Positions 18,842-22,799 of a stretch of 36,412 nt of DNA are shown here, piece by piece. The DNA is taken from the NCBI GenBank assembly GCA_009380025.1, contig WHSP01000029.1:1-36412 (forward strand), in the 5' to 3' direction. A model generated the notes under the pieces. It saw only the letters and a program-made list of their open reading frames with translations. It did no database searches and was not told where the DNA came from. The translations under genes and the position numbers were made by a program. The DNA comes from Gemmatimonas sp. (GTDB taxonomy: Bacteria; Gemmatimonadota; Gemmatimonadetes; Longimicrobiales; Longimicrobiaceae). Each line of letters starts with the position of its first letter. Position 1 is the first letter of the stretch.

Positions 18842-20812
18842 CTACATCTCACGAGGTCCGTTGAACCCGACGCGCAGGGTCTTCGAATCGACCTGCTCTC
18901 GGACCCGGCCGGCAAACGCCTGACGTGTAACGATCTCCTGCTTCCTCCCCGCCCCACGGACCCGAACGGCCACCGTGCCCGCCTCTGCCTCACGACCGCC
19001 GATCACCGCCATGTACGGGACCTTCTGGGTCTCGGCCTCCCGGATCTTGTAGTTCAGCGTCTCGCTCCGGTCATCGACCTCGGTGCGAATGCCGACGGCG
19101 GCGAGATCCCCGGCGAACTGGCGCGCGCTCTCGTTCTGCTCGTCCGAAATCGGCAGGACGACCACCTGCACGGGCGCGAGCCAGACCGGGAAGGCCCCGG
19201 CGTAGTGCTCGATCAGGATCGCGATGAAGCGCTCGAACGAGCCGAAGATTGCTCGGTGAATGATCACCGGGCGGTGTTCTCGGTTGTCTTCGCCGGTAAA
19301 CCCGAGATCGAACCGATCGGGGTTGGCGTAGTCGAGCTGGATCGTACCGAGCTGCCACTTGCGGCCGATGGAGTCGGAAACGTCGAAATCGATCTTCGGG
19401 CCGTAGAATGCTCCATCGCCGGGCTTGAGCTCGTACGCCAAGCCCGTCGACTCCAGCGCGGCCAGGAGCGCTCCCTCCGCACGATCCCACATCTCGTCGT
19501 CACCGATCCGGACGTCCGGCCGGGTGGCGAACTTCGTCGTGTACTCGAGCCCCAGGACGCCGTAGAAGTAATCGAGCAGGCCGACCATCCGGCCCACTTC
19601 GTCCGAAATCTGCTCCTCCGCGAGATAGGCGTGCGCATCATCCTGTTGGAACTGACGAACGCGCGTGAGCCCGCTGAGCGCGCCGGAGACCTCGTTCCGA
19701 TGCAGTACGTCCTGAGTAGCGTAGCGGATCGGCAGGTCCCTGTAGGAACGCTTCTTCGCCGTGTACATCAGGTGGTGCGAAGGACAGTTCATCGGTTTGA
19801 GGGAGAAGTCGTGCTCGCCCGTCTCGTTGTCGAGAACGAGAAACATGTTCTCGCGGTACTTGCCCCAGTGCCCCGAGACCTCCCACAACCCCTTGTTGAA
19901 CAGCAACGGCGTCTTGACGATGTCGTAGCCGTTTTCGAGCAGTACTTCCACCATCCACCCGACGAGTGCGTTGAAGATGATGGTGCCGCGGTGAGTCCAG
20001 AAAGCGGAACCCGGCGCAGTCGGGTGGAAGAAGAAAAGGTCGAGCTCGCGACCCAGCCGACGATGATCACGCTTCTTCGCCTCTTCCAGCCGGTGCAGGT
20101 AGTCTTCGAGCTCCCGCTTCGAGTGCCACGCCGTTCCGTAGATCCGGTGGAGGGTCTGGCGGTTCGAGTCGCCCCGCCAGTAGGCTGCGGCCGTATTCAG
20201 CAGCTTGAAGTGCTTGATCCGACCGGTGTCCGGAACGTGCGGACCGCGACACAGATCGAGAAAGGGCCCGTTCCGATAGACGGTGATCACCTCACCGTCG
20301 CCGAGCTCCTCCAGACGTTCGAGCTTCAGCGGGTCGGCGGCGAAGAGCTCCCGAGCACGCGCCCGATCGACGACCTCCCGTTCGAACGGATCATCGGCCT
20401 CAGCAACCTTCGCCATCTCCTCCTCGATCCGCTTGAGGTCCTCCGGTGTGAACGGCTCGGCCACCTCGAAGTCGTAGTAAAAGCCATCTTCGATGGCGGG
20501 GCCGAAGCCGATCCTTGCCTCAGGACGGATCCGACGAACCGCGGTCGCTAGCACGTGCGCCGCCGAATGGCGGAGAACATCGAGCGACTCAGAGCTCTTC
20601 TCGGTAAGGATCTCGACCGTCGCGTCTTCCTCCAGAGGACGTGCAACGTCCACCACCTGTCCGTTCACCTTCGCGGCGAGCGCGGCCCGCGCGAGTCGCG
20701 AACCGATCGACTCCGCGACCTCGAGTACTGTCGTTCCCGTTGGATAGCGCCGTTCCGAGCCGTCCGGTAGCCTCACCTGCACCTCGCCCGGCGCGTCGAC
20801 GATCTGCGTCAT
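18842..20812 (-). CDS. thrS: Threonyl-tRNA synthetase
   Basis: The 656-residue class II synthetase charges tRNA-Thr. Domains in order: TGS (about 10-72), the editing domain with HSAAH (82-86) and the LCRGPHVPDTGRIKHF metal-type segment, the catalytic core with MNCPSHHLMY, RNEVSGALSGLTRVRQFQQDDAH and PVIIHRAIFGSFERFIAILIEHY, and the anticodon-binding domain (about 545-650). ATG at 20812 with GGGGA 6-7 bases upstream. No T-box leader is present; instead a Thr-codon-rich leader peptide and attenuator precede it. Downstream is infC, as in many bacteria. Confidence 0.97.
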   Translation of the reverse strand: MTQIVDAPGEVQVRLPDGSERRYPTGTTVLEVAESIGSRLARAALAAKVNGQVVDVARPLEEDATVEILTEKSSESLDVLRHSAAHVLATAVRRIRPEARIGFGPAIEDGFYYDFEVAEPFTPEDLKRIEEEMAKVAEADDPFEREVVDRARARELFAADPLKLERLEELGDGEVITVYRNGPFLDLCRGPHVPDTGRIKHFKLLNTAAAYWRGDSNRQTLHRIYGTAWHSKRELEDYLHRLEEAKKRDHRRLGRELDLFFFHPTAPGSAFWTHRGTIIFNALVGWMVEVLLENGYDIVKTPLLFNKGLWEVSGHWGKYRENMFLVLDNETGEHDFSLKPMNCPSHHLMYTAKKRSYRDLPIRYATQDVLHRNEVSGALSGLTRVRQFQQDDAHAYLAEEQISDEVGRMVGLLDYFYGVLGLEYTTKFATRPDVRIGDDEMWDRAEGALLAALESTGLAYELKPGDGAFYGPKIDFDVSDSIGRKWQLGTIQLDYANPDRFDLGFTGEDNREHRPVIIHRAIFGSFERFIAILIEHYAGAFPVWLAPVQVVVLPISDEQNESARQFAGDLAAVGIRTEVDDRSETLNYKIREAETQKVPYMAVIGGREAEAGTVAVRVRGAGRKQEIVTRQAFAGRVREQVDSKTLRVGFNGPREM

Positions 20813-20873
20813 CTCGAATCCCCTGGCATTCTGGATCGCTTGCTTGCGAACAAGTGAACCGACGGCATACCCC

Positions 20874-20913
20874 CAAACAAGAGCGCGGCCCCTCGACCGC
20901 CGAGAGACCGCGC
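20874..20913 (-). terminator. Attenuator terminator (arms 3:4) upstream of thrS
   Basis: On the minus strand GCGCGGTCTCTCG (20913-20901) pairs with CGAGGGGCCGCGC (20895-20883): a 13-bp stem with two G-U pairs and the 5-base loop GCGGT. The U-rich stretch TCTTGTTTG follows (20882-20874). It ends about 60 bases before the thrS start. The U-tract is imperfect but the stem is very stable. Confidence 0.8.
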
Positions 20914-20998
20914 TGAAAATCTGGAAGGATCCAGCCTACCGCACGCGACCTCTCCCGACACCCCGAGCGGGGGCCCCGGTAGTTACGGTTCGCGTCGT
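20883..20998 (-). promoter_or_regulatory. Transcription attenuator of thrS (alternative RNA pairings)
   Basis: Three mutually exclusive helices can be read. Arms 1:2: ACGCGAACC (20995-20987, inside the Thr codons) with GGTCGCGT (20950-20943), one bulged A. Arms 2:3, the antiterminator: GAGAGGTCGCGT (20954-20943) with GCGCGGTCTCTC (20913-20902), 12 bp with three G-U. Arms 3:4: the terminator. A ribosome stalled at the Thr codons leaves arm 2 free for 2:3 and transcription continues. A ribosome reaching the stop codon (20938-20936) covers arm 2 and the terminator forms. This is the thr/his/phe-leader logic applied to a synthetase gene. Seen in sequence; function inferred. Confidence 0.78.
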
Positions 20999-21031
20999 CG
21001 CGCGCGGGCTGATCTCTATTTCGTTCATCAT
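20936..21031 (-). CDS. Threonine-rich leader peptide of thrS
   Basis: A 31-codon frame starts at tandem ATG codons (21031, 21028) and ends in TAG before the attenuator. Residues 12-18 read TTRTVTT: five Thr codons in seven (ACG ACG CGA ACC GTA ACT ACC). The rest is Arg/Gly-rich and shows no domain. The peptide's role would be to sense Thr-tRNA charging by ribosome stalling. The predicted promoter places the RNA start only a few bases before the first ATG, so translation may be nearly leaderless. Confidence 0.75.
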   Translation of the reverse strand: MMNEIEISPRATTRTVTTGAPARGVGRGRVR

Positions 21032-21041
21032 AACGACTTCA

Positions 21042-21070
21042 AGCCTAGTGCCTGGGGCTGGGCGAGTCAA
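21042..21070 (-). promoter_or_regulatory. Candidate promoter of the thrS leader
   Basis: On the minus strand TTGACT (21070-21065) and TAGGCT (21047-21042) are 17 bases apart. The -35 is good, the -10 only moderate. The -35 box lies inside one arm of the 15-bp inverted repeat at 21058-21093. The expected RNA start is around 21035, right before the leader-peptide ATG. Confidence 0.55.
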
Positions 21071-21093
21071 CCCGAATCGGTTGACTCGCCCAG
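21058..21093. repeat. Perfect 15-bp inverted repeat
   Basis: CTGGGCGAGTCAACC (21058-21072) and its exact complement (21079-21093) flank a 6-base spacer. It sits between groEL and the thrS leader. There is no U-tract on either strand, so it is not a canonical terminator. It overlaps the -35 box of the thrS leader promoter, so it could be an operator, or the 3' stabilising hairpin of the groEL transcript. Confidence 0.75.
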
Positions 21094-21106
21094 AATAGGG
21101 AATTAT

Positions 21107-21151
21107 GAATAGTGAAGCGTTTTCTCTTTCACCCTTCACCCTTCACTATTC
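21107..21151. repeat. 11-bp inverted repeat after groEL
   Basis: GAATAGTGAAG (21107-21117) and CTTCACTATTC (21141-21151) are exact complements separated by 23 bases that include the tandem heptads CACCCTT. The hairpin begins right after the groEL stop. No U-tract follows. It resembles low-complexity TTCACCC heptad repeats found between genes elsewhere and may be a 3' end structure. Confidence 0.6.
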
Positions 21152-21152
21152 C

Positions 21153-22799
<1,647 letters not shown>

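Follow-up and report, generated by a model that had tools for sequence, protein, structure and literature searches.

A candidate threonine leader-peptide attenuator upstream of thrS in Gemmatimonadota

The thrS locus and its leader region

Does the short, threonine-rich reading frame that precedes thrS, the gene for threonyl-tRNA synthetase (ThrRS), in Gemmatimonas sp. control this gene, and if so, by what mechanism? A sequence-only reading of the locus had proposed that a leader peptide with Thr codons, together with a terminator and an antiterminator, governs thrS. Comparison of the window, that is, the entire 36,412-nucleotide stretch that was analyzed, with its relatives strongly supports this proposal. 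With high confidence, we interpret the region as a ribosome-mediated transcription attenuator of the classical type, which would respond to the level of charged tRNA-Thr and regulate thrS, and perhaps infC-rplT-pheST as well.

The window belongs to a genome of 5.0 Mb in 478 contigs, and the nearest named relatives of its ThrRS come from Gemmatimonadota metagenome-assembled genomes. On its minus strand, thrS (18842..20812; 656 aa; identified by Pfam and TIGR00418 matches) is followed by infC, rplT, a gene for an RsmF-like methyltransferase, pheS, and pheT, in that order, and these five genes are presumably co-transcribed with thrS. Directly upstream of the leader region, on the same strand, lies groEL (22787-21153). 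The elements of the leader are arranged on the minus strand in the order promoter-like hexamers, 31-codon frame, antiterminator, and terminator, 123 nt before thrS. A separate, terminator-like inverted repeat that belongs to groEL is located upstream of the leader, at approximately 21091-21060; between groEL and this hairpin, positions 21090-21160 hold an A+T-rich inverted repeat with GGGTGAA repeats, which resembles a small mobile element or a repeat element.

The promoter-like hexamers (21042..21070, minus strand), TTGACT at 21070-21065 and TAGGCT at 21047-21042, are separated by 17 nt and lie 10 nt before the leader ATG. They match the consensus at 8 of 12 positions, with a poor -10 element (TAGGCT), and were missed by a stricter scan; the -35 hexamer falls within the 3' arm of the groEL inverted repeat. 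Across the leader set, a site of the form TTGAC-N16-18-YANNNT is present no more than 100 nt upstream of the Thr run in 23 of 27 leaders, compared with 93 of 15780 random windows, and these predicted sites argue against thrS transcripts that start downstream of the leader. Because the hexamers end only 6-10 nt before the ATG in the window and in three relatives (L021, L027, and L120), these four leader frames may be leaderless, and that of the window is probably near-leaderless.

The leader frame itself (20936..21031, minus strand; 31 codons, ATG ATG ... TAG) encodes MMNEIEISPRATTRTVTTGAPARGVGRGRVR. It is recognized both from its sequence and from the Thr-run ORFs that precede thrS in relatives, and is presumably translated. 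The frame reads exactly as previously described, with Thr at residues 12, 13, 15, 17, and 18. The corresponding putative regulatory codons, ACG ACG (20998-20993), ACC (20989-20987), and ACT ACC (20983-20978), span 20978..20998 on the minus strand.

Four segments of the same strand, arms 1 to 4, can pair in alternative combinations. Arm 1 (ACGCGAACC; 20987..20995) pairs, as had been claimed, with GGTCGCGT at 20950-20943; this pairing consists of 8 bp with one bulge, and a longer version of this arm 1:2 pairing occurs in the minimum-energy fold of the free window leader. Arm 2 (GAGAGGUCGCGU; GAGAGGTCGCGT, 20954-20943) is located within the last leader codons, with the TAG stop (20938-20936) 4 nt past it, and is complementary to arm 3 (GCGCGGUCUCUC; GCGCGGTCTCTC, 20913-20902), the segment common to the antiterminator and the terminator. 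The 12-bp duplex previously assigned to arms 2 and 3 is indeed present, as 12 consecutive pairs of which 3 are G-U. Arm 3 also pairs with arm 4 (CGAGGGGCCGCGCT, 20895-20882) in the predicted intrinsic terminator (20872..20914), which consists of a hairpin of 14-15 bp at 20914-20882 and the tail CTTGTTTGGG. The hairpin is as the earlier reading had it, but the tail, which had been called U-rich, is only moderately so, as well as imperfect and weaker than in relatives; the terminator probably functions in vivo. As a whole, the window leader folds better than shuffled sequences (z -2.5). An additional hairpin, denoted P1 (CCGG.GCCCC.GGGGU.UCGG; 20955..20979, minus strand), is predicted when the leader is folded with a ribosome at the first Thr codon, and abuts arm 2.

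Threonine leaders before thrS in related genomes

The search for a Thr-rich short frame upstream of thrS in relatives, which the earlier reading had called for, showed that such frames recur. Of 223 thrS upstream regions, 27 contain a short ORF in which 4 or more of 8 codons specify Thr, with a terminator no more than 120 nt away; this count includes one Clostridia match (L089) that probably represents something other than such a leader. The combination occurs 5 times in 2.15 Mb of control sequence from the same loci (0.001 per 420-nt window). The leader anatomy is present in 5 of the 20 sampled genomes of the window's own family, with 3 more doubtful (clear cases: the window, L011, L015, L017, and L138), in 3-4 of 8 genomes of a second family of the order (L004, L006, L021, and, weakly, L027), and in 18 of approximately 82 inspected genomes of a third; it was not seen in the genomes sampled from the other orders of the class. 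Poly-Thr stretches are frequent in the leaders of relatives, for instance, MSALITTTTTTTTGRTTGLGAACVD in L161, MFRMLGSTTTTTTTRLLPGGVG in L015, and VFGNTTTTTTTTGQTTGRGVALVG in L055; MTLTATTTQTRTTSRTPGVPCH, accompanied by a terminator, is present in L058, an Acidobacteriota bin. A genome-wide scan for six consecutive ACN triplets returned many unrelated matches. Altogether, Thr is encoded in the leaders by ACC (100), ACG (73), ACT (29), and ACA (4), such that the run stays Thr while the third base varies, as expected if the amino acid is the conserved feature.

The distribution of the leaders is patchy. The Thr leader is missing before thrS of G001 (L018), which belongs to the same genus as the window, and the ThrRS tree, a quick tree with one long branch, requires 11 gains or losses. 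In three genomes (G126, G127, and G129; loci L163, L197, and L198), the thrS terminator is kept and the Thr leader has decayed, which would represent an apparent loss of the sensor. Another small frame, which spans some 35-50 codons and encodes a single hydrophobic segment, directly precedes thrS in four loci: in L011 and L017, it is situated between the attenuator and thrS, and in L012 and L020, no leader was found. Three loci (L134, L135, and L136, from G008, G019, and G011, respectively), in which the Thr run is the C-terminal tail of the upstream frame (e.g., ...GQHTRTTTGTVPTKLARAAG) and is followed by a terminator, were not counted among the confirmed leaders because the switching test described below fails in two of the three; the upstream frame in these loci looks like a glycosyltransferase.

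The leaders are tightly spaced, with 21-45 nt from the last Thr codon to the stop and 19-31 nt from the stop to arm 3, and the GGCC..GGCC hairpin with its U tract is retained in relatives. Of the arms that had been predicted to covary, the 3:4 hairpin is thus kept, whereas arm 1:2 is not a conserved element among relatives and the covariation of arm 2:3, taken alone, does not exceed that of shuffles, with its pairs showing little covariation. For this reason, covariation was not used as proof of the antiterminator, and the support comes from complementarity: 75% of cells are paired in the arm 2:3 alignment vs. no more than 57% when the arms are slid against each other. Covariation was found in P1: across an alignment of 17 third-family leaders (A1, columns 3-9 with 14-20), 94% of its pairs are formed, and the covariation score is 0.513 vs. 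at most 0.119 when slid. Compensatory changes include C-G, G-C, and G-U at one pair and G-C, C-G, G-U, A-U, and U-A at another. In the third-family leaders, the loop of P1 holds Thr codons, and the hairpin adjoins arm 2 without overlapping or competing with it. Judging from its position, the window hairpin at 20979-20955 is presumably homologous to P1 of the third family.

Ribosome position and the number of regulatory states

The predicted folding of the leaders depends on the position of the ribosome. In 29 of 31 leaders, arms 2 and 3 pair more strongly than in dinucleotide-shuffled sequences, and in 27 of 31 they pair more strongly than when synonymous codons are shuffled. Before arm 4 has been transcribed, the probability that arm 3 is sequestered is 0.78 for a ribosome within the Thr run and 0.30 for one on the stop, compared with 0.61 and 0.36, respectively, in the shuffled control (paired Wilcoxon over the leader set, p 9e-6, a value in which the independence of these related sequences is overstated). 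The effect is pronounced in the window, where the probability is 0.90 with the ribosome on Thr codons vs. 0.00 with the ribosome on the stop, a difference that was reached by 0 of 40 shuffles, and where a ribosome on a Thr codon is predicted to leave arm 2 paired with arm 3. The earlier contention that a ribosome at the Thr codons frees arm 2 and one at the stop masks it is borne out by this position-dependent folding. At equilibrium, the full-length RNA of the window favors the terminator even when the ribosome is stalled (0.96), and the terminator also wins in most of the other complete RNAs; the switch must therefore be kinetic, as is also assumed for the known attenuators.

Under the attenuation mechanism that we propose, transcription would begin at or just before the leader ATG. 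When Thr-tRNA is scarce, the first ribosome would stall on the Thr codons and leave arm 2 free to capture the nascent arm 3, and this antiterminator, probably stacked on P1, would allow the polymerase to continue into thrS. When Thr-tRNA is plentiful, the ribosome would reach the stop and cover arm 2, so that arms 3 and 4 could pair and transcription would end. Threonine limitation would thus be expected to raise thrS expression.

A rival account, namely, that the region is an ordinary constitutive terminator behind groEL or that the Thr-rich ORF is there by chance, with no regulation of thrS, draws on the position of groEL directly upstream, on the arm 2:3 duplex of the window, which by itself is unexceptional and within chance (p 0.16 vs. 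dinucleotide shuffles), and on the loci that have a terminator without a Thr leader before thrS (L018, L005, L163, and L197). However, groEL has a terminator-like repeat of its own, and the combination of Thr run and terminator is more than 100-fold enriched before thrS relative to background, keeps a fixed spacing, and is found as well at loci with a gene other than groEL upstream, so that we consider this account very improbable. Even less credence can be given to a different kind of sensing RNA, either a T-box or a ThrRS-binding operator as in Escherichia coli. These are the known controls of thrS in Firmicutes and enterobacteria, respectively, but what is conserved here is a Thr run in a reading frame, and no Rfam family was matched in the window or 13 related loci at curated thresholds. 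The T-box covariance model found nothing in the leader region, even with E values up to 5 allowed, and the Rfam Thr_leader model, which represents the enterobacterial thrABC leader, had no match either; accordingly, a T-box or another Rfam family was rejected as the identity of the leader.

How many states the ribosome-mediated attenuator has is a separate issue. In the three-state scheme put forward earlier, an untranslated leader would form arm 1:2 and thereby terminate. This claim agrees with the minimum-energy structure computed for the entire free leader of the window, which combines arms 1:2 and 3:4. In untranslated RNA that lacks arm 4, however, arm 3 is sequestered at about the level of shuffled RNA (0.75 vs. 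0.74 in the window; 0.70 vs. 0.65 on average), and arm 1:2 is not conserved. A third state, in which the absence of translation leads to termination, is not supported across relatives. A two-state variant would dispense with the arm 1:2 state: P1 would stack on the antiterminator, so that an untranslated leader would read through by default and only a ribosome at the stop would cause termination. The location of P1 directly beside arm 2, without overlap, in 17 relatives and the window is consistent with this variant, as is the average sequestration of arm 3 in free RNA; the closeness of that average to the shuffled value and the minimum-energy fold of the window leader both speak against it. 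We give the two-state variant slightly less than an even chance; it is a sub-version of the attenuator proposed above, and the confidence placed in one overlaps with that placed in the other.

Other amino acid genes and comparison with known systems

A covariance model, R1, that was built from the thrS leaders only was searched in 154 genomes of the order. All matches below 1e-8 are thrS leaders, 17 of 18 of them from the training set, and the next matches outside the training set include leaders with the matching residue before three other genes, the identities of which were checked with NCBIfam: MSIVIYIRHHHHHAAHKGGGKVVRV before hisG, the Phe/Tyr-rich MSYSAAFAYFRFYWATPKTGRGRRHARM before the DAHP synthase gene in the window's own genome (L302, G000:C436:18288-18382), and MRNGTYFIDLDFFFTARTMGRGRRCGRR before the prephenate dehydratase gene (pheA). 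A directed look showed His-rich leaders upstream of hisG in 6 of 14 genomes, one of which (G170) belongs to a different family of the class, and aromatic-rich leaders upstream of the DAHP synthase gene in 11 of 18. For hisS and ilvB, 10 genomes of the order were inspected, and no leader peptides were found. The leaders before hisG, DAHP synthase, and pheA suggest that the thrS element is part of a wider use of attenuation in the phylum. Gemmatimonadota very probably employ classical ribosome-controlled attenuation for Thr and also for His and aromatic amino acid genes. More speculative, and in our estimation rather unlikely, is an amino acid attenuation network in Gemmatimonadota (thrS, hisG, DAHP synthase, and pheA) built on a common two-state design, in which P1 with the sensor codons in its loop would stack on the antiterminator, readthrough would be the default, and completed leader translation would switch transcription off; acting by way of thrS, tRNA-Thr charging would then also determine the levels of IF3, L20, and PheRS.

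Several individual loci can be described in this context. His-rich leaders with a terminator precede hisG in L298, L306, L312, L313, L314, L316, and L325, from several Gemmatimonadota families, and Phe/Tyr-rich leaders with a terminator precede the DAHP synthase gene in L302, L299, L326, L327, L330, L331, L335, L336, and L339. In L303 and L304, at approximately 1400-1610 on the match strand, Phe-rich leader-like ORFs (MRNGTYFIDLDFFFTARTMGRGRRCGRR and MIDQTASYGFSFTFTTRTTGRRGSCMP) with a terminator are located before the prephenate dehydratase gene. Outside the phylum, a conserved short frame, GTTATGACACCGCGNACT..., with MTPRT and, in some loci, more Thr, lies upstream of thrS in Burkholderiales (L080, L087, L088, L095, L098, L103, L106, and L111), accompanied by a AAGCGCGG..CCGCGCTT hairpin with a T tract. 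This element, for which four loci (L080, L098, L103, and L106) gave no Rfam match, could possibly be a second, separate thrS attenuator.

If the proposed regulation is correct, leader-peptide attenuation, best known from Proteobacteria and Actinobacteria, works in another deep phylum and on at least four amino acid genes, and a synthetase that is usually under the control of a T-box or a translational operator would be controlled by codon-specific ribosome stalling. It would also make a regulon readable in a little-studied phylum, in which short leader ORFs are likely missed by gene finders, and would provide a natural series of poly-Thr sensors for testing ribosome position against termination. 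Since the leader has been gained and lost in a patchy manner among close relatives, the way in which attenuators evolve can be tested directly.

The earlier reading regarded peptide-based attenuation of thrS as undescribed. For the phylum, we found no report of leader-peptide attenuation in the literature compared; attenuation is apparently unreported so far in Gemmatimonadota, the mechanism itself being of the known classical kind. In 2010, Lopatovskaya et al. reportedly surveyed the attenuation of aminoacyl-tRNA synthetase operons; this survey, which lay outside our comparison, is the likeliest place of an earlier thrS prediction, and priority for thrS attenuation is uncertain. For the gene, the claim of novelty goes too far: in the literature compared, thrS, a leader peptide, and attenuation come together only in the weak, two-Thr thrL of Streptomyces lividans (PMC8079986). 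Until 2010, leader-peptide systems had been shown only in Proteobacteria and Actinobacteria, and sensing systems are exchanged between lineages at the same synthetase gene (PMC2965389).

Among the known systems, thrL of S. lividans was proposed as a leader peptide before thrS, on a leaderless transcript, from transcriptome data; it contains two Thr (MKRVRPFLETTPGFVPAR) and no clear terminator (PMC8079986), whereas the thrS leaders described here mostly have 4-12 Thr and a clear terminator and recur across genera. The thrS T-box of Firmicutes resembles the mechanism proposed here in that the terminator before thrS is read through in response to uncharged tRNA-Thr, but the T-box, for which no match was found here, senses the tRNA directly and needs no translation. 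The E. coli thrS operator controls the same gene through binding of ThrRS to a tRNA-like mRNA structure, which blocks translation, unlike the transcription terminator and coding leader of the present locus. The present leaders also resemble the thr, his, trp, pheA, and pheST leaders of E. coli, in which a run of cognate codons in a short ORF with its stop near arm 2 is likewise combined with an antiterminator and a terminator that have arm 3 in common and are controlled by ribosome position. The leaders described here differ from these classical systems in the phylum, in having thrS as the target, and in the near-leaderless start of a few, including that of the window. Furthermore, the conserved 1:2 helix that overlaps arm 2 in the E. 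coli leaders is replaced by P1, which flanks arm 2 and carries Thr codons in its loop.
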